From assembly GCA_018304045.1 (NCBI GenBank), contig JAGVWZ010000017.1, positions 1 to 33,196 on the forward strand: DNA of 33,196 bases, given 5' to 3'. Positions 4,145-29,219 of this stretch are shown in pieces (positions within the stretch are counted from its first letter, which is position 1; each line of letters begins with the position of its first letter). Under the pieces are notes generated by a model that searched no databases, was not told the origin of the DNA, and saw nothing but the letters and a program-made list of their open reading frames with translations. The position numbers and the translations under genes were made by a program. The DNA comes from Candidatus Pacearchaeota archaeon (GTDB lineage Archaea; Nanobdellota; Nanobdellia; Pacearchaeales; GW2011-AR1).

Positions 4145-7100
4145 CTATTTCTTCCTAGCCTTCTTAACTTTTCTTTTTTCAACAGTTATCTTTTGAGATT
4201 CTGGAGAAACAATTATAAAATCCTGTTCTTCATAATAATCAGTTGCTTCAGATAATCTATCAATTATATTTTTCTTTTTTACCTTAGATTCAATAACAGA
4301 TTTAGAAGATTGTTTATTATCACTAACAACACCCATATCCATGTTCTTAAAATAAGTTAAAAGTAACAACAAAACAGTCATCATTATAACAGACATTATT
4401 CCAACTACAACAAATAATAAATGATTATTTCCTTCATCTGGAGAAAGTACAACTTCTTGATTTCCAGGATTTATTTTTATTGTCTCAAGACTTTTCTGAG
4501 CATTAATCTGATTTTTACAAGCCCCTAATGTTAATTCTTTTTCAAATAAAACATTGTAACCATCAATACCAACTTTTATTGTATAATTGCCTTCCTTTGC
4601 ATCTTCAGGAACAGTTAAGGTAATTGTTTTTTCAGATGGATCTTCATTATATTCCCCAACTCTGAAAGAATCACTTAATTGACTCCATGCAAATTCAGCA
4701 TTTTCAACTCTTACTTTAACATACTGAGCATATTTTCCAAAGTTTTCCAATGTTGCCTTAATATCAACAGAATCACCACAAATAACACCCTCAATTGGTT
4801 CTATTTCAACACTTTGTATCACTAAATTAGAATCTTTTCTTTCTACATTTAATTTTTGATAAGTGTCATTATAGAACTTGCTATGATTGTCATCCTTTCC
4901 AATAGCTCTTACAAATAAGTAATATTCATCACTATCCCTAAGATTCTCTTCAAGATTAAAAGTTATATTCAATTTTTTATTAGAGCCATCATTTATATCA
5001 GCATCTTCACTTGTTTTCCAGATTACTTTTTGTTTTGTTAAATCATATACATAAAATTGTATATCAAAGCTCATATCATCTCCTTTTGAATTTGCAATTT
5101 TCAATACAGAAGTTACATTATCTCCAAAATAAAGTTTATCATCATTGGTTGGACTTTCAATTGTTATTTTTATTTTATCTGTAGAATTTTCAGTAGTAAT
5201 ATTTTTCACATTATTGAATTGAGGAGGTTTTGCAGTACATGCTACAGAACAGCAACTAGCAGAATCATAAACCCCTAATATTTGGCCTTTGCATGTTTGA
5301 TTTTCATTGCATATATATCCCTTTATCTCACTGCAACTAAATTCATTAATATTTCCAACATTAATATTCCAACTACGATTAACTTCATATTCTCCATCAC
5401 TAACACTAACTGAAAGAATATAATTTCCTTTTGTTTTATTAAAATAATAACTTGCATTAGTTCCAACAATTTCATTGCCAATTTTCCAAGTTACATTAAC
5501 CTGGCTGTCAGGATCATAGTTCAATACCATAAACCGATTTTCAATTCCAGACAATAATTTTACTGAATTTTCCTTAGGATAATAATCTTTTATAACAGGT
5601 GCATCATTTACATTTTCCATATTAAATTCAAGTACAGCTTCTCTATGAGAACCTCTAATATCCACAACATTTATTGTGCATAATCCCTTTCCAACCTGGT
5701 CTTTTTCAGAAATATATTTTAAAATATTTCCTTGAATTGTGCAATTGATTCTTGAATTACTTACAACTAAAAATGAAAAACTATCATTCTCAACATCTGT
5801 AGCATTTAATTCACATTCATAGGCAGTATCTTCCTTGATATTTAAAATACAGTTTATTGGAGCAAATACAGGAGCCTCATTGATGTCATTAACATTTATT
5901 CTTAGTGGATTAGAATAAATTGTAAACTCATCATCACTAGCTGAAAAAACAACAGTTTCTGTTCCAAAAAAACCATCTTCAGGATAAAAACTAACTTTTC
6001 CATTATTTATTCCAATATCAATAAAATAATTTCCAGTAACTTCAAAAGATAAATTACTATCAATGTCTAAAAAATAATCTCTTAAATCAATGAAATTTGT
6101 AAGATTACTTCCTTCATCAAATGAAACAGTATTTATATCTCCATTAAATACAGGAGCATCATTGATAGGATTAATTTTCACAAAAGTTTTATTCATTTCA
6201 GTAACTCCAATTCCATCACTTGCATTGAAAACAATCCATTCTTCACCAAAATAATCATCAGCACTTGAAACAACAACAACCCCGTTTTGAATTGAATCTA
6301 ATTTTAAATTTGAACTTAGATTTGCTAATCTAAATGTAATATTATCTCCATCTTCATCATAACAATAATCATTTAAATCAAATTGAACAGCTTCATCCTC
6401 ATTTGTTTCAATCAATGGAACATTACTGCATATTGGTTTTCTGTTTGTTTTTACAATTTCTATATTAACCAATTGAGAAACATTCAATAATCCATCACTA
6501 ACAATAACATTAAATGAATAATTGCCCATATCAGAGTATTCTGTTTGCCATGAAAAAATATTCCTATTAACCAAATCCTGTTCAAAATTTCCATAGTCAA
6601 CAAAATAAGTAATATTATCATTTTCAGAATCACTAGCACTTATATTTAAAATAATTTTATTAGTTTCCATGGCTTTTATATCATTTATTTTTTCTAATAT
6701 AGGTGCATCATTTCTACAATTTTTAAACAGATTACTTGAACCAGCATTAAAACTAGTATCATTATCATCACAATCAGTTCCAGTCAATTCAGTTTCCTTT
6801 GCACATTGTAAAGAATAATTTTGTATTACATATCCTATCTTGCAATAACCATCTTCATCAGAATCTCCAATATCATAACCCCTACATGTTTGATCTATTC
6901 CATCATAAGGTATTTCAATTCCATTTGGATTTACATTAGTATTATTATCATTGCAATCATTATTATTAACAGAATATCCCAAATGCAAGTTAAATCCAGA
7001 GCAAACCTCAAGTTGATTTCCAATTCCAAATCCATCTTTATCACTGTCTAAATAACCAAGAACTAACCTCCAAATATTTGCATCAGAATCATTGCAATCA

Positions 7101-8317
7101 GTTCCAGAATTAGAATAACCTGCAGGCAAAGAATTTCCAGAACAAACCTGAGTTATATTTCCAGAACCTCTTCCATCTTTATCATTATCAGCATATCCAT
7201 TCAAATAACTCCAAACATTTGTATTTGTATCATTGCAATCTCCACCAGACATTGAATATCCAGCAGGTAAATTACTACCAGAACAAACCTGCGAAAGATT
7301 TCCAGTTCCAATTCCATCCCTGTCACTGTCTAAATAACCAGGAAGATTTCTATATAGATTAGCATCACTATCATTGCAATCTCCACTAATTGTAGAATAA
7401 CCATTTGTTAGATTGTCTCCTGAACAAACCTGTAGCAATGAACCAGTACCCTTTCCATCCCTATCATTATCAACATAACCTGAAAAATTCTGATATTTCA
7501 AAGCATCATTATCATTGCAATCTCCACCAATTGTAGAATATCCTGCAGGCAATGAAGTTCCAGAACAAACTTGCAATAATGAGCCTCCACCCTTTCCATC
7601 CCTATCATTATCAACATAACCAGGCAAATTTCTAAATTTCAAAGCATCATTATCATTGCAGTCATTGTCAGAATAATATCCATCATTATCATTGTCAACT
7701 CCAAGTCTTGTCCAGTTCAAAGAATTTTTAAATAATTTTTTTGTATCTCCACTCCAATAATCAATTGAGTAAAATCCAAAAAAGACTTTTCTTATATTAT
7801 TTGAATTTGAATATGCAATAATAGGATAAGTTCCTGTTGCACCTGTTGTTCTTGCAACACTTGTTATCCCAGCAGGATAAACATGTAGATAATATTCTGG
7901 TTTAGCAGTTGTATAAGCATCAAAATTAATAGTAGTGAATCCCTGTGTAAATGGAGTTCCTATTTGATCTAATTTAGCAGAAAATATTTGGCTGCTTCCA
8001 GCAATAACAGTTCCACTTGTCCAAACCAAAGGAGCATAATCCCTATGTATAAAAATTAAATTTTTAGAATTCAATGGCAAATAATTCTTATTAGTTATAC
8101 TATCCTGAATTAAAAGAATAGCATAATTTGAAAAATTTGCACCATGAATATTAGCATCAAGAATTACATCATAACTATAATTCATTTCATTTAAAATACT
8201 TATAATCTGAGGATTTTGAGCTGTTTTTACAACATAGGCAACATCCTTAGCTAAAACATTGTTTACTAAAAAAATCATTAATATAATTACTGAAAAAGCT
8301 AATATGAATTTATTCAT
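4145..8317 (-). CDS. giant anchored surface protein: signal peptide, N-terminal ThuA/GATase-like domain, PMBM-type Asp/Cys repeats, cadherin-like repeats, C-terminal TM and basic tail
   Basis: 1390 aa; N-terminal hydrophobic segment, repeated DNDRDGKGxGSLLQVCSGxxLPAGYSxxGGDCND units, EDEAVQFDLNDYCYDEDGDNITF-type repeats, LLFVVVGIMSVIMMTVLLLLLTYF TM, VKKARKK tail. Confidence 0.8.
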   Translation of the reverse strand: MNKFILAFSVIILMIFLVNNVLAKDVAYVVKTAQNPQIISILNEMNYSYDVILDANIHGANFSNYAILLIQDSITNKNYLPLNSKNLIFIHRDYAPLVWTSGTVIAGSSQIFSAKLDQIGTPFTQGFTTINFDAYTTAKPEYYLHVYPAGITSVARTTGATGTYPIIAYSNSNNIRKVFFGFYSIDYWSGDTKKLFKNSLNWTRLGVDNDNDGYYSDNDCNDNDALKFRNLPGYVDNDRDGKGGGSLLQVCSGTSLPAGYSTIGGDCNDNDALKYQNFSGYVDNDRDGKGTGSLLQVCSGDNLTNGYSTISGDCNDSDANLYRNLPGYLDSDRDGIGTGNLSQVCSGSNLPAGYSMSGGDCNDTNTNVWSYLNGYADNDKDGRGSGNITQVCSGNSLPAGYSNSGTDCNDSDANIWRLVLGYLDSDKDGFGIGNQLEVCSGFNLHLGYSVNNNDCNDNNTNVNPNGIEIPYDGIDQTCRGYDIGDSDEDGYCKIGYVIQNYSLQCAKETELTGTDCDDNDTSFNAGSSNLFKNCRNDAPILEKINDIKAMETNKIILNISASDSENDNITYFVDYGNFEQDLVNRNIFSWQTEYSDMGNYSFNVIVSDGLLNVSQLVNIEIVKTNRKPICSNVPLIETNEDEAVQFDLNDYCYDEDGDNITFRLANLSSNLKLDSIQNGVVVVSSADDYFGEEWIVFNASDGIGVTEMNKTFVKINPINDAPVFNGDINTVSFDEGSNLTNFIDLRDYFLDIDSNLSFEVTGNYFIDIGINNGKVSFYPEDGFFGTETVVFSASDDEFTIYSNPLRINVNDINEAPVFAPINCILNIKEDTAYECELNATDVENDSFSFLVVSNSRINCTIQGNILKYISEKDQVGKGLCTINVVDIRGSHREAVLEFNMENVNDAPVIKDYYPKENSVKLLSGIENRFMVLNYDPDSQVNVTWKIGNEIVGTNASYYFNKTKGNYILSVSVSDGEYEVNRSWNINVGNINEFSCSEIKGYICNENQTCKGQILGVYDSASCCSVACTAKPPQFNNVKNITTENSTDKIKITIESPTNDDKLYFGDNVTSVLKIANSKGDDMSFDIQFYVYDLTKQKVIWKTSEDADINDGSNKKLNITFNLEENLRDSDEYYLFVRAIGKDDNHSKFYNDTYQKLNVERKDSNLVIQSVEIEPIEGVICGDSVDIKATLENFGKYAQYVKVRVENAEFAWSQLSDSFRVGEYNEDPSEKTITLTVPEDAKEGNYTIKVGIDGYNVLFEKELTLGACKNQINAQKSLETIKINPGNQEVVLSPDEGNNHLLFVVVGIMSVIMMTVLLLLLTYFKNMDMGVVSDNKQSSKSVIESKVKKKNIIDRLSEATDYYEEQDFIIVSPESQKITVEKRKVKKARKK
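6900..7690 (-). repeat. tandem PMBM/MopE-like Asp-Cys repeats (about six units)
   Basis: Repeated [L/P]GYxDxDxDGxGxGxxxQVCSGxxLxxGYSxxxxDCNDxxxx units in the translation. Confidence 0.75.
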
Positions 8318-9009
8318 TTCTTAGCCCTCTTTTTTGATTTAATTATATTTCCCTTCCTCCCTTTATCACTTTCTTTTTTATTTTCTTCTTTTACATCACT
8401 ATTATTTTCTTCTTTTTCTTTTTTTCCTGCTTTTGAATAATATACAATCAAAACAACAAAAAATATTAATAATATTATTCCTGTTATTGACAATAATAAA
8501 ACCAAAGGACCTATTGGTTTTATAGTATTTTCTCCAGTATTATCTGTATTATCAGTATTATCTAAACTATCATTGGTATCAGGACTAATTGACTCATTAT
8601 CCTTTAAAACCATCACAACAACATTAGAACTTAATGCAACTCCTTTTCCTTCTGTAAAAGAAGTGAATTTAACATTAATCTTATTTTCAAAAGCACCTTC
8701 TTTAGTTATTTTAATTGTAAACCTAGCATCTTTTTCTTCTCCAGGTTCTAATGTAAAATTACTATCTAAAATTTTTATATCTTTTACAAGATCTCCTGAT
8801 GCAAAAATTTCTATTTTAACTGATTCATTATTTACATTTTTTACAAGAATTGATTTTTCAATAGTATCTCCAACCTGCGCTCTTAAAATCATTCTTGCAT
8901 TTCCAATGCTTGCAGTGACAGCGAGAACATTTCCCATTAATACTACTACAATTATTACAAAAATTCCAATCATACATGATTTTGTAGATGGTTTTAGACC
9001 AGTTTTCAT
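8314..9009 (-). CDS. secreted/anchored protein with Ig-like (NEW3-like) domain and C-terminal TM, translationally coupled to the 4145-8317 gene
   Basis: 231 aa; signal-peptide-like N-terminus, SFTLEPGEEKDARFTIKI-type beta domain, TM LVLLLSITGIILLIFFVVLIVYY, Lys-rich tail; 4-bp overlap with the next gene. Confidence 0.7.
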   Translation of the reverse strand: MKTGLKPSTKSCMIGIFVIIVVVLMGNVLAVTASIGNARMILRAQVGDTIEKSILVKNVNNESVKIEIFASGDLVKDIKILDSNFTLEPGEEKDARFTIKITKEGAFENKINVKFTSFTEGKGVALSSNVVVMVLKDNESISPDTNDSLDNTDNTDNTGENTIKPIGPLVLLLSITGIILLIFFVVLIVYYSKAGKKEKEENNSDVKEENKKESDKGRKGNIIKSKKRAKK

Positions 9010-9029
9010 GTATTACTCGAAAGTAATAC
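9010..9029. promoter_or_regulatory. perfect 8-bp inverted repeat directly abutting the start codon
   Basis: GTATTACT-CGAA-AGTAATAC; the start CAT (minus-strand ATG) is at 9007-9009; TATA-like GTTTAAAAAA (minus strand) lies just beyond at about 9031-9040. Confidence 0.6.
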
Positions 9030-9133
9030 CTTTTTTAAACATTATTAATTTTGAAACATGACTTTTCAATAATAAAGAAAGTATTATAGATATCACTAAG
9101 AATATTAAAAATTAGTACATGTAAGGAGTAAAT

Positions 9134-12100
9134 CTACCAATTAAACGAACAATCTTTGCACAAATCAGCAACAGCCCAACCTACAAGATGATTACAAGAT
9201 CTTCCATCTGCATTATATAAGAATAAATCAGCCTGCAATCTTCCACAAAATTCATTATTATATTGTGTTACAGGTATTTCAATAATCTTTGATTGTTTAG
9301 GTGCAAGTATGGTAGTTACCATGCCAAGTCTTTTACAGTTTTGTTGAAGTGTTTCAGGATCATCTCTTTCTCCATTAAATTGTTTATCAGGATAATATTC
9401 TAAACAAACTCCAGAAGGAGTTCCAGCATGACTAGGACATCTGCAAGCATAGGCTTCATAGGTTATTGTATTAAAATCATCATGATCATCATTAGTAAGC
9501 ATAACTTTGTAAACATAAGTCGCATTAGCATCAATTGTCGTACCAATAGAATGTGCTTCAATATCACATTGTTCATTATCCTGCACAAGTGCTTGAGCAC
9601 ATATATGAAGATTAATACATTTTCCATTTAAATTACATCCATATCCATTTTGACATCCACCACAACTTACTGTTCCACCACATCCATCACTCCAACTACC
9701 GCATTGTTTTTCTAATTGAGAACATGTTTTTGGAACACAACTATCAATGCATTGTCCATTAGTACAAACTTGATTTTGTGTACATGTCTGATTTAACATG
9801 TCTGTAGTTGAATTTGAACAATAACTACTTGCTGTTCCAGGATTATTGCATGTGAAAGTTAAATATTTTTGGAAAACATTATTATTTTGACAGAATAATC
9901 CATTAATCCAGCTATTTGTTCCACAATCTGAATTAATAGTACATGTTATATTTGTAATGCATTGTCCATTTGTACATCCATAAGCACAAGTTTGAACAAG
10001 TGTTTCTTCAACATGACTGCTGCTTACACAAGCATTATTTGAACATCCTTTGTCATAGCAAATTTTTGATTTGTAAACATCACTTCCCTTGCAATAATTT
10101 TCACCATAATTATCACAATAATTTTCACCACAATTATTAATCATTTGCTGAGTTGCATTTACAACACAATAACTATTTGTTGTTCCGGGATTCAAACATT
10201 TAGCAATCTGATAATTCTTGAAAACATCATTAAGCATGCAATATTCGCTTCCAAAAAATCCAGTAAATCCACAATCATTGTCATTGACACAATTTACAAG
10301 AACATTAGAACAATAGCTTTGAGGTGTTGCAGGATTATTACATGTATCAATAGTATAAACATTATTATCATTACAATCTGCATTTGTTGAACAATTTATA
10401 TTAACATTAATACATTGACCATTGCTGCATTGTTGATTAGCCAAACAATCTTGTTTTAATTGTAATTGAGTTGAATTACTGCAAGAACTTAATGCAGTGC
10501 CAGGATTATTACAAGCAAAAGTTATATAATTTTGGAAAACATCATTATTTTGGCAAACAAGATTACCAATCCAACCATTTGTTCCACAATTATCATTACT
10601 CCAACATACAATATTATTACATTGACCATTTTCACATACTTGTCCATTAGCACATTCTTGTTTTAATACATCACTTAAACCATTTGAACATGAACTTAAT
10701 ACAGTGCCAGGATTATTGCAAGTATAAGTTCTGTATTTATCATAAACATCATTATCTTTACAAAATAATTGATTCAAGAAACCATTTGTTCCACATTGAC
10801 TATCTAAATTGCATATAACATCAAGACATTGTCCATTTGTGCATACTTGTCCTGCAGCACAATTTCCATTATTCTCATCAATCAAGCCATCACAATCATC
10901 ATCAATACCATTGCATATTTCAACTGCATTAGGATGTACATTTGGATTATTATCATTGCAATCAAAAGGTTTTCCATCATCACCAGGAGTTCCAGGATTG
11001 CAAGTGTCATAAGTATCTTGATCATTATCAACACAATTATTTTGATTACATACACCATTACTACATCCATAGCTACAAGTTTGTTTTAATTGAGCAACAA
11101 TATTGTTAGTACAACTTGACTGAGAAGTGCCAGGATTATTGCAAGTATAAGTTTTATAATTTTGGAAAACATTATTATTCTGACAGAATAATCCGTCAAT
11201 CCAACCATCTACACCACATTGTGAATTTGAACTGCATGCTATTGGATTATGCTGGCAAGCACTTTGTTGTGTTCCAGGATTTAAGCAAACATCCTGAGTA
11301 TTTGCATTATTGTCATTACAATCACTATTACTACTACAAGCAATATTTATGCAAACTCCACTTGAACATATTTGCCCTGATCCACATGTTTGTTTTAATT
11401 GAGGATTTAATGAACTTGAACAAGAACTACTAGTTGTTCCAGGACTATTGCATGTATAAGTTATGAAATTTTGATAAGCATTTCCATATTGGCAGAATAA
11501 ATCTCCAACAAATCCATTTGTTCCACATTGTGAATTTGTATTGCAATTTATAGCAGTATGCCCACAATAACTAGAAGTTGTTCCAGGATTCAAACATTGA
11601 TCAAAAGTCATTGGATTATTATCATTGCAATCAAAATCATTATTACAAACAATATTTACACATTGCCCATTATTGCATGATTGGCCCTGTCCGCAATTCT
11701 GTTTTAATTGAGGATCTGTTGAGCTTGAACAATAGCTATTAGTTGTTCCAGGGCTATTACATGTATAAGTTCTGTAATTTTGGAAAAGTCCATTATTACT
11801 GCAGAATAAATCTCCAACAAATCCATTTGTTCCACATTGTGAATTTGAACTGCAAGTTATAAAATTATATTGACAAGAACTTGAAGGAGTTCCAGGATTT
11901 AGGCAAACATCTTGGGTATTTGCATTATTGTCATTGCAGTCTGAATTTGATTTGCATTTTACATTAACACATTGCCCATTTGAACATCCATAATTGCATA
12001 CTTCAACAATTTCTTCTTCAAGTGAATTAGTTTCCACACACTGGCCATTTGCACATCCATTATTCTTGCAAGTTCTTAAATGATAAATATTTCCATTCTT

Positions 12101-14488
12101 GCAATAATTTCCTTGCCATTTATCACAATAACTATCTCCACAACCATTTAATAGATTTGAATTTACAAACACAGAACAATAACTATTGCTTGTTCCAGGA
12201 TTAATACATTGAGATTTTTGGAAATTCTTGAAAACACTGCTTCCTACACAGAATTCACTTCCAAAATATCCAGTTATTCCACAATCAGCATTTGCATTGC
12301 AATTTATAGCAGTATGACTGCAATAAGCAGATTGTGTTCCCTGATTATTACATTGATCTTTTGTTAATGTATTTCCATCATCACAATCAATATCATTATT
12401 GCATGAAACTTCTTTGCATTGTCCTTTGAAACAAACACCAGCACATTTTTGAATGAATTTTGAACTAATAGACGACATACAATTGCTTAATGCAGTTCCA
12501 GGATTAGCACAAGAGAATTGCTGGTAATCTTGATAAACATCATTACCAGTACAATATTTATTTCCAATAAATTTGTCAATACCACAACTTAAATTATTAA
12601 AGCAAGATAAACATTCACCACCAACGCATTGGAATTCACAATATTCTGATAATATTGGCATTTTAGTGTTTGTACAAGTACTCTGGCTTGTTCCAGGATT
12701 ATTACAAGTGTATGTAACAAAATCTTCAAAAGAATTTTGATTCATACAATATTTATTTCCATTAAACCCATTTATTCCGCAATCAAGATTTTTAGAACAA
12801 TGTATCACTTTATGTTCACAAGAACTTTGAGGTGTTCCAGGATTCAAACATTTATCCTCTGTATTTGAATTATTATCATTGCATTGAGCATCATTATAGC
12901 AAGTTATATTAACACATTCATTATTAAAACATTTATCAGCGCAATCCTCTATCATTTTATTTTCAGTAGAATTAGAACAACTGCTTATTCCAGTTCCAGG
13001 ATTATTACATTTGAATGTTATATATTTATCAAACAAATTATCACTTTGACAGAATAATTGATTTAAGAAACCATTTTGACCACATTCACCATCAGAATTA
13101 CAATTTACATTAAGACATTGGCCATTTGTGCAAACCTGACTGCCAGCGCATTGCTGTATTAATTGAGGAGAATTAACACTTGTACAGGTTGAATTAGAAG
13201 TTCCAGGATTATTACATGTGAAAACACTTGAATTTTGATAAACACTGTTACCAATACAATATTTATCATTTATCCCATCTATTCCACAATCAAGATTTTT
13301 TTTACATAATATTACTTTATGTTCGCAGGAACTATTTATTGTTCCAGGCAACAAGCATTTATCTTCTGTATTATTATTGCTATCATCACATTGAGAATCA
13401 TTGCTACAGATTATATTAAAGCATTGTCCACCACTACACAATTGATTTGAACTACAATTTGTTTTTACTAAATTAGAAGTTGTATTTGAACAAGAACTTA
13501 AAGAAGTTCCAGGATTATTGCATGTAAAAGTTAAATACTTTTGGAAAACATTATTGTTTTGACAGAATAATCCATCAACCCAGCCATCTACACCACAATC
13601 AGAATTATTATAGCATTTAACACATGCTCCATTAGAACATCCAACATCACATTCAGTTATTTTATTTGCAACAACATTTGCTAAGCATTTAGATTGAATA
13701 GTGCAATTGTTTAAACAACTATAGTCAGTTGTATTTTGATAAACACCTTTTCCAATACAATATTTACTTGAATTAGTAGTAGCTGGACAATCAGAATTAT
13801 TAGAACATACACTTCCAACAAAATTCAAGCAGTTCAAGAACATTTTTTTTGCATCTTCAGTCCAATAATCACTTTCAACAATTCCAAAAAAACAAATATT
13901 TCCATTAGTTAATTTACCATTCACAAGATGGGTTCCTTTTTTAGAATAACTAATAACATCACCAAGATCATAGCTATTTCCACTGTAGGTTCCTGCAATT
14001 TGAGTCATTTCAGAAGATTTATCATTCTTTCCAAGATAATAATAAGGTATTCCAACACTATTATAATCATAAACACCTTGAGTATAAACTTGTATAATAG
14101 AACCATTTTGTTTAACACTCATTGGTTCTGATCTTGCAAGATTTGAAATTCCCTCATTATCTGTCAGGCCCCAAACATAACCATGGTAATAATTAGTTAT
14201 CACAGTTGGATATTTTCCAATTGGAATCATAGAAGGATTTGTAAATCTTTCATCACCAACAAAAATAAATTTGTATTTTGAAAGATTAGTGCTTGCAACC
14301 TTGGATTCCTGTATCAGGTCAATACTTAGATTAAGCTGGTTCAATAAAACTTTTACATTATTGTCAATCTTAAAATTCTTATTGTAAATATAAGCAACAT
14401 CTGCTGCAGAAATCATGGGTATAAGAAAAATACTTAAGAATACCCAAGCTAAAATAAGCTTATTCAGAGCAACAACCTTTTTTCTCAT
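9134..14488 (-). CDS. 1784-aa secreted Cys-rich repeat protein with N-terminal ThuA/GATase-like domain
   Basis: Signal peptide; 13 copies of xCGxxGFxGxxFCxxNxVFQNYxTYTCNNPGTxxSxCS and 7 copies of xCNDNNxxTxDxCLNPGTxxSxCxHxxIxC; one PMBM-like segment (ICNGIDDDCDGLIDE); CGSWSDGCGGTVSCGGC motif near the C-terminus. Confidence 0.8.
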   Translation of the reverse strand: MRKKVVALNKLILAWVFLSIFLIPMISAADVAYIYNKNFKIDNNVKVLLNQLNLSIDLIQESKVASTNLSKYKFIFVGDERFTNPSMIPIGKYPTVITNYYHGYVWGLTDNEGISNLARSEPMSVKQNGSIIQVYTQGVYDYNSVGIPYYYLGKNDKSSEMTQIAGTYSGNSYDLGDVISYSKKGTHLVNGKLTNGNICFFGIVESDYWTEDAKKMFLNCLNFVGSVCSNNSDCPATTNSSKYCIGKGVYQNTTDYSCLNNCTIQSKCLANVVANKITECDVGCSNGACVKCYNNSDCGVDGWVDGLFCQNNNVFQKYLTFTCNNPGTSLSSCSNTTSNLVKTNCSSNQLCSGGQCFNIICSNDSQCDDSNNNTEDKCLLPGTINSSCEHKVILCKKNLDCGIDGINDKYCIGNSVYQNSSVFTCNNPGTSNSTCTSVNSPQLIQQCAGSQVCTNGQCLNVNCNSDGECGQNGFLNQLFCQSDNLFDKYITFKCNNPGTGISSCSNSTENKMIEDCADKCFNNECVNITCYNDAQCNDNNSNTEDKCLNPGTPQSSCEHKVIHCSKNLDCGINGFNGNKYCMNQNSFEDFVTYTCNNPGTSQSTCTNTKMPILSEYCEFQCVGGECLSCFNNLSCGIDKFIGNKYCTGNDVYQDYQQFSCANPGTALSNCMSSISSKFIQKCAGVCFKGQCKEVSCNNDIDCDDGNTLTKDQCNNQGTQSAYCSHTAINCNANADCGITGYFGSEFCVGSSVFKNFQKSQCINPGTSNSYCSVFVNSNLLNGCGDSYCDKWQGNYCKNGNIYHLRTCKNNGCANGQCVETNSLEEEIVEVCNYGCSNGQCVNVKCKSNSDCNDNNANTQDVCLNPGTPSSSCQYNFITCSSNSQCGTNGFVGDLFCSNNGLFQNYRTYTCNSPGTTNSYCSSSTDPQLKQNCGQGQSCNNGQCVNIVCNNDFDCNDNNPMTFDQCLNPGTTSSYCGHTAINCNTNSQCGTNGFVGDLFCQYGNAYQNFITYTCNSPGTTSSSCSSSLNPQLKQTCGSGQICSSGVCINIACSSNSDCNDNNANTQDVCLNPGTQQSACQHNPIACSSNSQCGVDGWIDGLFCQNNNVFQNYKTYTCNNPGTSQSSCTNNIVAQLKQTCSYGCSNGVCNQNNCVDNDQDTYDTCNPGTPGDDGKPFDCNDNNPNVHPNAVEICNGIDDDCDGLIDENNGNCAAGQVCTNGQCLDVICNLDSQCGTNGFLNQLFCKDNDVYDKYRTYTCNNPGTVLSSCSNGLSDVLKQECANGQVCENGQCNNIVCWSNDNCGTNGWIGNLVCQNNDVFQNYITFACNNPGTALSSCSNSTQLQLKQDCLANQQCSNGQCINVNINCSTNADCNDNNVYTIDTCNNPATPQSYCSNVLVNCVNDNDCGFTGFFGSEYCMLNDVFKNYQIAKCLNPGTTNSYCVVNATQQMINNCGENYCDNYGENYCKGSDVYKSKICYDKGCSNNACVSSSHVEETLVQTCAYGCTNGQCITNITCTINSDCGTNSWINGLFCQNNNVFQKYLTFTCNNPGTASSYCSNSTTDMLNQTCTQNQVCTNGQCIDSCVPKTCSQLEKQCGSWSDGCGGTVSCGGCQNGYGCNLNGKCINLHICAQALVQDNEQCDIEAHSIGTTIDANATYVYKVMLTNDDHDDFNTITYEAYACRCPSHAGTPSGVCLEYYPDKQFNGERDDPETLQQNCKRLGMVTTILAPKQSKIIEIPVTQYNNEFCGRLQADLFLYNADGRSCNHLVGWAVADLCKDCSFNW
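9700..13640 (-). repeat. coding Cys-rich tandem repeats (approximate bounds)
   Basis: Alternating long and short Cys repeats in the translation; first and last long repeats nearly identical at DNA level (9838-9900 versus 13510-13570). Confidence 0.75.
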
Positions 14489-27762: not shown

Positions 27763-27904
27763 ACTAAAAATTAAATCAAGGAGTAAATCAAAATATCATT
27801 AATGTACAAACAAAAAAGCAATGCACAGCAAACATCCCAATTAACCCAACTTGCCTGCATAACCCATTCGTTTTACATTAGCTAACAATAAAAATGAAAA
27901 ACAA
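27763..27904 (+). repeat. intergenic leader repeat copy A
   Basis: ATCATTAATGTACAAA...ACAGCAAACATCC...CCTGCATAAC...TTTTACATTAGCTAACAATAAAAATGAAAAA. Confidence 0.85.
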
Positions 27905-27910
27905 AAACAA

Positions 27911-28270
27911 TCAACCTCTAATACTAAATTGGTCTGGAGATAATAATATTACCTTACCTTTAATGTCATTCGAAGATTCTAATAATTTTAAAATAGATGA
28001 CTTCTGTGATTCTAAATCCTCAGCAGAAATTCTTATAACAATGATTCCAGAATGTTTATCAGAAAATAACTTATTTTTTACAAAATCAGAATCTCTTGTT
28101 ATTAATGCTCTTTCTTCATTTAATGAAAGCCTAAAAACCTCCCCATTCATAATACCTTTTGGACAAAGCTTCACATCATATCCTTTATCCTTTAGAAAGA
28201 AAAATAAGCCTTTATGTACATTTTCATCAATTAAAAATTTCATTTTAAGCAGGAATAATTTTAGAAGCAT
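27911..28270 (-). CDS. DUF5615-like PIN-fold toxin candidate
   Basis: 119 aa; MKFLIDENVHKGLFFFLKDKGYDV...RALITRDSDFV. The internal Met at MKFLIDEN may be the true start. Confidence 0.75.
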   Translation of the reverse strand: MLLKLFLLKMKFLIDENVHKGLFFFLKDKGYDVKLCPKGIMNGEVFRLSLNEERALITRDSDFVKNKLFSDKHSGIIVIRISAEDLESQKSSILKLLESSNDIKGKVILLSPDQFSIRG

Positions 28271-28457
28271 ATCTAAGTGCAGCCAAAATATGCTCAGAGC
28301 TAATAGAAGGATAAGCTTCGATTACATCTTTAATACTAGCCCCTGCCCCAAGCATCTCAAGGATAGTATGAACCATTACCCTTGTACCATTAAAAGTTGG
28401 CTTTCCATGACAAATTTCACTGTCAATAACAATATAATTATCAATTTCAGTTCTCAT
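28245..28457 (-). CDS. DUF433-family antitoxin
   Basis: 70 aa; IVIDSEICHGKPTFNGTRVMVHTILEMLGAGASIKDVIEAYPSISSEHILAALRYA. Confidence 0.9.
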   Translation of the reverse strand: MRTEIDNYIVIDSEICHGKPTFNGTRVMVHTILEMLGAGASIKDVIEAYPSISSEHILAALRYASKIIPA

Positions 28458-28499
28458 AATTTTGATAGTAATCTAAATTATTTAAATGTTGCGAATAAA

Positions 28500-28646
28500 A
28501 CTAAATTAAATATCCAAGGAGTAAATATCATTAATGTACAAAACAAAAAAAAGTAATACACAGCAAACATCCAAATTAACCCGATTAACCCAACTTGCCT
28601 GCATAACTCACTTGTTTTACATTAGCTAATAATAAAAAATGAAAAA
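28500..28646 (+). repeat. intergenic leader repeat copy B
   Basis: Same sequence as copy A with small indels, ending TTTTACATTAGCTAATAATAAAAAATGAAAAA. Confidence 0.85.
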
Positions 28647-28889
28647 TAATATTAATAAAAAAAATAAGAATGCCACAAAAAATGTAGCCTCAATAATAAT
28701 GCATAAAGTCTCCACAAACTATAATTATCATAATAAGATTAAGTATATAAAGTTTAACAAAAAAAATAAGGGTTCAAACAGAGCGGAACCCAATCAACTG
28801 TCAATCAATTATGATAATCATAACAAACCGAAATATTTAAATCTTTTTAATATATATAAAATAAATAAAAAAAAGAAAGAGGGTATGAT

Positions 28890-28918
28890 CCCTCAAAGGT
28901 CAGAACGTGTCTTCCAAG
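28890..28918 (+). pseudogene. truncated tRNA-like copy lacking the anticodon arm
   Basis: CTCAAAGGTCAGA and GTCTTCCAAG shared exactly with the tRNA at 28984-29065, in the same order; the intervening anticodon arm is missing. Confidence 0.6.
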
Positions 28919-28983
28919 TTAATAAGTATAATATAGGCAATTATATAAATCTTTCTGTTCTCCATAGTCTTGGTGCAGAGAGT

Positions 28984-29065
28984 GCCCTGGTCGCTCAAAG
29001 GTCAGAGCACTTGTCTGAAAAACAAGGTCTTCCAAGACATCTGGGTTCGAGCCCCAGCCAGGGCG
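28984..29065 (+). tRNA. tRNA with GAA anticodon (Phe by anticodon), long class-II-like variable arm and G73
   Basis: Acceptor GCCCTGG/CCAGGGC; D-stem GCTC/GAGC; anticodon stem CTTGT/ACAAG with loop CTGAAAA; variable GTCT-TCCA-AGAC; T-arm CTGGG-TTCGAGC-CCCAG. TATA-like TTATATAAAT at 28941-28950. Confidence 0.85.
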
Positions 29066-29099
29066 GCTCTGCATCTTTTTTCTCTAAAAAATCAATTAT

Positions 29100-29219
29100 A
29101 AATTCAAATGGGGGAAATATCAATAATGTTCAAAAACAAAGTAACAAGCAACAGCAAATCTAATCAAGCTGCCTGCATAACTCAATTGTTTTACATTAGC
29201 TAACAATAAAAATGAAAAA
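29100..29219 (+). repeat. intergenic leader repeat copy C
   Basis: ATCAATAATGTTCAAAAACAA...CTGCCTGCATAACTCAATTGTTTTACATTAGCTAACAATAAAAATGAAAAA. Confidence 0.85.

Follow-up and report, generated by a model that had tools for sequence, protein, structure and literature searches.

The bacterial allo-tRNAs are serine isoacceptors by their identity elements and carry highly diverse non-serine anticodons, with GUC among the commonest (Mukai et al. 2017, reviewed in PMC7609411). One group of them overlaps a transposon-related reading frame, a tie to transposons or toxin-antitoxin systems has been suggested, and it is stated for allo-tRNAs that SerRS does not read the anticodon (PMC7609411). The tRNA-Ser(CAG) of Candida is a serine tRNA that reads a hydrophobic (leucine) codon, for which ambiguity has been described (PMC4300185). 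The nematode nev-tRNAs are leucine-type class-II tRNAs with the anticodon of another amino acid that exist beside the normal cognate tRNAs, and they are reported as weakly expressed and matured, with misincorporation not detected. The Rickettsia palindromic elements are small structured repeats that are inserted in frame in protein genes; they are not tRNAs and occur in many copies per genome.

The window analyzed here, a 33,196-nt stretch of a Pacearchaeota genome (contig JAGVWZ010000017.1), contains a tRNA gene with the following features:

28984 to 29065, + strand: serine-type class-II tRNA gene (ARAGORN, Rfam RF00005, fold, and membership in a family of 20 loci)
29017 to 29019, + strand: its anticodon, GAA
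29027 to 29040, + strand: its V arm of 14 nt, GTCT-TCCA-AGAC
29065, + strand: its discriminator base, G73

ARAGORN called a tRNA-Phe(gaa) at 28983-29067, and Rfam RF00005 matched exactly 28984-29065 with 58.6 bits. The predicted fold (-33 kcal/mol, z = -3.6) comprised all five helices, namely the cloverleaf and a fifth helix. When read by hand, the acceptor stem has 7 bp (GCCCTGG/CCAGGGC), the D stem is GCTC/GAGC, the anticodon stem is CTTGT/ACAAG with the loop CTGAAAA, and the T arm is CTGGG/CCCAG with TTC and a 5-bp stem; U8, A14, A15-U48, and G18G19 are present. The earlier note had described arms that all close around a loop giving GAA, which both programs, the fold, and the sequence bear out, and its reading of the long GTCT/AGAC V arm, G73, and the tertiary positions (U8, A14, A15-U48, G18G19, TTC) agrees with the sequence. 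The gene thus shares the GAA anticodon with archaeal tRNA-Phe but is not of class I and has neither the short variable loop nor A73. It has the class-II V arm, G73, and G1:C72 of tRNA-Ser, but reads GAA where a serine tRNA would have NGA or GCU. The possibility that an intron conceals a normal class-I tRNA was rejected, since a variable region of 14 nt leaves too little room and its stem shows covariation.

A tRNA inventory of the host genome (1.16 Mb, 55 contigs, 86% complete), a check proposed in the earlier note, identified a normal class-I tRNA-Phe(GAA) with A73 elsewhere (L009, C20:43550-43621), so the window gene is not the sole tRNA-Phe(GAA). The four tRNA-Leu genes (CAA, TAA, TAG, AAG) all have A73, while the serine set includes an intron-bearing Ser(GCT) and, at C51:15965, a Ser(TGA); the latter was omitted by the Rfam tRNA scan, and the inventory is therefore incomplete. 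The combination of a V arm and G73 is otherwise confined to tRNA-Ser in this genome, and similarity of the window tRNA to tRNA-Phe is low. The suggestion of a Ser-like tRNA reading Phe codons is consequently supported as to the body of the molecule. By plain similarity the nearest ordinary isotype is Ser for 17 of the 20 family members, in a comparison that included more Ser reference sequences than those of other isotypes; for the window copy the Thr score equals that of Ser. As a separate observation, the host tRNA-Leu(AAG) at L025:1501-1584 (C8:59124-59207 of its genome) is an A34 tRNA, and so is a tRNA-Pro(AGG) of another genome (L050 of G042). An A34 tRNA is unusual for archaea.

A plain nucleotide search of relatives returned short matches only, among which the locus L044 of a congeneric genome opened the family. 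It encodes a homologous tRNA with the anticodon CAA and has the same flanks as the window tRNA: GATGCAGAGGATT upstream and CCTCTGCA past G73. Covariance models built from these two tRNAs (R1) and then from 17 (R2) were searched against the order of about 200 genomes. This gave 20 loci, spread over 17 of the genomes and 11 genera of a single Pacearchaeota family, including two loci added by inspection (G162 and G195). The distribution is patchy, with members in only four of the 18 genomes of the window's own genus. Matches to R2 at 65 to 82 bits were mostly ordinary tRNA-Ser, with G162 and G195 the only members among those inspected, and a few low scorers may be missed. Beyond this Pacearchaeota family, a phylum-wide search revealed no member among the matches inspected; four loci from outside it (L134, L135, L143, and L147) were rejected as ordinary tRNA-Ser lacking the leader-trailer stem described below. 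In viral contigs, a pattern of the T arm and trailer had no match, and a pattern spanning the TATA box to the trailer had two, neither holding a tRNA, which were set aside as chance. Phage and plasmid records had no match.

All 20 members retain G1:C72, G73, the V arm, U33, a purine at 37, G18G19, and TTCRA, while their anticodons include CAA (four), AAT (four), GAT (three), CAT (three), GAA (two), TAA (two), and GTC (two). No member has a serine anticodon. A35 is present in 18 of the 20, a bias that looks like a change of the middle base of NGA or GCU serine anticodons. Among 17 aligned members, 96.5% of cells in paired positions form a base pair, compared with 34-45% in slid controls; 26 of the 32 pairs vary on both sides, and covariation extends to all helices. 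In a tree with the anticodon masked, a single branch separated all 20 members from Ser, Leu, and Phe, with one label change (support 83/78), although the few columns leave the deep forks without resolution. Sister pairs with good support carry different anticodons (TAA/CAT, 100/98; GTC/CAT, 99/80), which indicates that anticodons were swapped within the family. Not every member has a canonical tertiary core: base 8 is A in three of the 20, and many siblings have C or U at base 14. Additionally, the T loop has inserts of about 54 nt in G192b (L100:1501-1658) and about 17 nt in G195 (L206:1949-2068). Like the window genome, G130, whose member has the anticodon CAA, also encodes a cognate tRNA for the same codon, a normal Leu(CAA). 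The GTC anticodon together with G73 in the G125 member could suit AspRS.

Besides the tRNA itself, members share a promoter-like sequence and a stem that joins the leader to the trailer. The corresponding features in the window are:

28942 to 28949, + strand: TATA box TATATAAA, the probable promoter of the tRNA unit
28974 to 28980, + strand: 5' strand of the leader-trailer stem, TGCAGAG, pairing with 29067-29073
29067 to 29073, + strand: 3' strand of the leader-trailer stem, CTCTGCA, pairing with 28974-28980
29076 to 29081, + strand: T run directly 3' of the trailer stem, a probable terminator

The motif TAT[AT]TAA[AG] occurs in all 20 members and starts 33-42 nt (usually 39) upstream of tRNA base 1, usually 28 nt upstream of the stem region, a spacing that would place an archaeal start site near the leader stem. 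The leader-trailer helix is paired in 94% of cells among the 17 aligned members, and six of its seven pairs change on both sides. A T-rich stretch lies at the corresponding place in most other members. The stem, the promoter, and the mini-copy and in-frame nesting described below are additions to what the earlier note had recorded. Taken from the sequence, the transcript probably begins and ends with the two stem strands. The leader-trailer loop was also considered as a bulge-helix-bulge splice motif, a reading rejected for its wrong geometry.

Upstream of the promoter, the window contains an array of partial copies:

28879 to 28918, + strand: mini-copy of the window tRNA, consisting of a hairpin (GAGGG/CCCTC), the D-loop piece CTCAAAGGTCAGA, and the V-arm piece GTCTTCCAAG (repeats; match of mini to tRNA)
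28660 to 28720, + strand: older mini-copy of a different tRNA identity, GTAGCCTCAATAATAATGCATAAAGTCTCCACAAAC, which matches the mini of G090 and not the window tRNA
28754 to 28803, + strand: third mini-like hairpin, GGGTTC..GAACCC followed by AATCAACTG, with a homologous peptide and hairpin in the G195 array

The window mini-copy has neither an anticodon arm nor a T arm, and the two further minis are copies of other identities. The array is common to G195, also GAA-bearing, where the counterpart of the third hairpin reads GSNRVVEPNQLTQDYDNYNKQKYLKLL (L206) against GSNRAEPNQLSINYDNHNKPKYLNLF in the window. A mini was found about 60-110 nt upstream at every one of the 20 loci, with D-loop and V-arm pieces and without an anticodon or T arm; a counter-case is G125b, whose mini retains remains of the anticodon arm. 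Each mini tends to resemble its own tRNA: the mean longest match was 11.7 compared with 6.3 for the D piece and 9.5 compared with 4.8 for the V piece. None of 20,000 permutations was as good for either piece, and the match holds in nearly all loci. Many minis fold into a hairpin and carry a V stem of their own (ATCT/AGAT), which gives them the look of maintained rather than simply decaying sequences; they align poorly in MAFFT. No tRNA without a mini was found among the 20 loci, while G002 has a mini and TATA box without a tRNA on contig C57 (L217:1450-1620), possibly a relic or a solitary functional mini. Antisense restraint of the tRNA by the mini was rejected, as the hairpin is matched to itself and not to the tRNA.

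The whole array lies within an open frame, and a toxin-type gene lies at lower coordinates:

28639 to 29163, + strand: 174-codon open frame running through the minis, promoter, stem, and tRNA, with no Pfam family
27911 to 28270, - strand: DUF5615 PIN-like toxin-type gene (Pfam PF18480, E=3.8e-13)

This 174-codon frame is the same frame as in members located inside long open reading frames. Surface-protein open frames of 951 to 3382 codons contain at least six members in frame. Pfam matches of the unit-bearing surface proteins included Laminin_G_3, along with intein-splicing and Hint matches under the curated cut-offs. The G130 unit is located in an intein, between its block-B region and C-terminal block, where endonucleases usually sit. 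The units of G011 and G192c are placed after the peptide CYDNETEILT, and the G195 intein is uninterrupted at both sites where G130, G011, and G192c hold a unit. Open frames, unrelated sites, and empty sites, the marks of an in-frame mobile palindromic element, were therefore found in the family, but not for all copies. Several are intergenic, such as that of G106, which by eye lies between rpoB-like and rpoA1-like genes, and those of G063 and G123, both TAA, are syntenic and vertical in appearance. The patchy, non-syntenic sites suggest that the units are mobile; no transposase or integrase tied to them was found.

The DUF5615 gene is antisense to an open frame at 27894-28556 (+ strand), and surface-protein loci with other members show nesting of a similar kind. 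Toxin-antitoxin-like genes often lie there antisense within open frames of surface proteins or inteins, and the sense frame stays open through them; those identified by eye were VapBC-like in G011 (L105) and RelE-like in G195 (L206:853-1485). Several copies have no toxin gene nearby. A 66-nt repeat ending in ATGAAAAA occurs in the window at 27836-27901, 28580-28645, and 29154-29219, each just 5' of an open frame, and these repeats bracket the toxin-like gene and the tRNA array. Elsewhere in the window, positions 4145-14488 (- strand) encode two very large secreted or membrane proteins of 1390 and 1784 aa with repeats, which are probably surface proteins.

We regard it as probable, though well short of certain, that the window gene belongs to a family of serine-type missense tRNA units that spreads horizontally and was found here in a single Pacearchaeota family. 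Such a unit would yield a serine-type tRNA (G1:C72, G73, V arm) with an anticodon moved off serine, mostly to NAA or NAU, which would read codons with a middle U. The primary transcript would start at the leader stem, about 28 nt past the TATA box, and end in the T run that follows the trailer; with both ends paired, 5' and 3' maturation could be restrained. Since SerRS ignores the anticodon, a class-II body with G73 is expected to be serylated once matured, and U33 with a purine at 37 in every copy favors decoding. The serylated window tRNA might then compete with the normal tRNA-Phe(GAA) for UUU and UUC, with Ser replacing Phe at a low or conditional level. The units would persist by spreading among genomes and by being tolerated in frame where giant surface proteins and inteins have expendable parts. 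The family, its structure, the swapping of anticodons, the promoter position, the matching mini-copy, the nesting, and the normal tRNA-Phe of the host genome are observed; serylation, decoding, and any benefit of the unit are proposed, and candidate purposes include a toxin or addiction unit, a regulated mistranslator, a nuclease decoy, and a non-decoding RNA.

The last two candidates belong to an explanation that we consider possible without expecting it: a tRNA-like RNA or selfish element that does not decode, whose fold is kept for spread, for stability, or as a decoy of PIN/VapC-type nucleases with the anticodon loop as bait. Maturation could be blocked by the leader-trailer stem, several copies have antisense toxin-antitoxin genes as neighbors, the D and V pieces are paired with a mini, nesting is in frame with an empty site, and comparable proposals exist for allo-tRNA(UAU) pseudogenes (PMC7609411). 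However, U33, the purine at 37, G18G19, TTCRA, and G73 stay constant amid divergence, as for a tRNA that is charged and used, and the copies without a toxin gene nearby also argue against it. If serine misincorporation instead poisoned translation and the cognate mini restrained the tRNA, the unit would be a missense-tRNA toxin with an RNA antitoxin. The match of each mini to its own tRNA, the survival of a mini and TATA box without a tRNA (G002, L217), with no tRNA found to lack a mini, and the neighboring toxin-antitoxin genes are as this would predict. The mini is nevertheless sense and not antisense, the window hairpin self-pairs and pairs poorly with the tRNA, and no restraint mechanism is known, which makes this account distinctly unlikely.

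Two further explanations were weighed. The earlier note had raised a tRNA-Phe with an acquired V arm; a genuine Phe tRNA of the lineage that acquired the arm together with G73, with PheRS charging it by way of GAA, would account for the anticodon and its competent loop. We consider this highly improbable, as an ordinary class-I A73 tRNA-Phe(GAA) is present in the genome, similarity to tRNA-Phe is little, and the closest relatives carry CAA, AAT, GAT, CAT, TAA, and GTC, seven anticodons in all with GAA, so that the body is untied to Phe. That an ordinary tRNA-Ser was duplicated, acquired a chance anticodon mutation, and is now decaying is hardly credible. GGA to GAA is a single base change and degraded partial copies do lie upstream, but 20 covarying relatives in 11 genera, with a conserved promoter and stem and not one serine anticodon, are contrary to decay. 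Returning to the missense tRNA family, we offer as speculation, rather unlikely in its full form, that these are selfish or addiction missense tRNAs of DPANN archaea, charged with Ser, directed at hydrophobic codons, restrained by the stem and mini, and carried in inteins and surface genes with toxin-antitoxin cargo.

As far as we found, a family with a serine-type body, swapped anticodons, and small transcription units of its own has not been described before, and no archaeal counterpart was found in the open-paper literature. Natural serine tRNAs with foreign anticodons were previously known from bacteria, as allo-tRNAs. If charged and decoded, the archaeal set would represent natural, evolving mistranslation in archaea with tiny genomes, and its many anticodon variants on one body could be used to test how cells restrain missense tRNAs. 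If not decoded, it would be a selfish RNA in the shape of a tRNA, accompanied by a matched mini-copy, and no less unusual. That tRNA units and antisense toxin-antitoxin genes are nested in inteins that remain open also bears on the cargo capacity of protein genes.

Compared with the known systems, the family resembles the Rickettsia palindromic elements in lying in frame in protein genes, but has one to three copies per genome, each a full tRNA with a promoter. The change in the Candida tRNA-Ser(CAG) is genomically fixed at one codon, while the present family is patchy and supernumerary and has many anticodons. The comparison with nematode tRNAs made in the earlier note is apt in kind, a V-arm tRNA with a non-cognate anticodon, but the nematode tRNAs are eukaryotic and leucine-type, and neither a leader-trailer stem nor a mini-copy is among the features given in the account of them used here; the window tRNA has G73 and lies apart from the Leu group in the tree. 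With the bacterial allo-tRNAs, the family shares serine identity elements and diverse non-serine anticodons. It differs from them in its 7/5 acceptor branch, in contrast to 8/4 or 9/3 (12 bp), and in its archaeal hosts. Further differences are the stem joining leader to trailer, the TATA promoter at a fixed place, the mini-copy upstream, a predominance of A35 anticodons, and units nested in frames of surface proteins and inteins. The closest known kind is the serine-type allo-tRNAs of bacteria, which are nearer than the V-arm tRNAs of nematodes.
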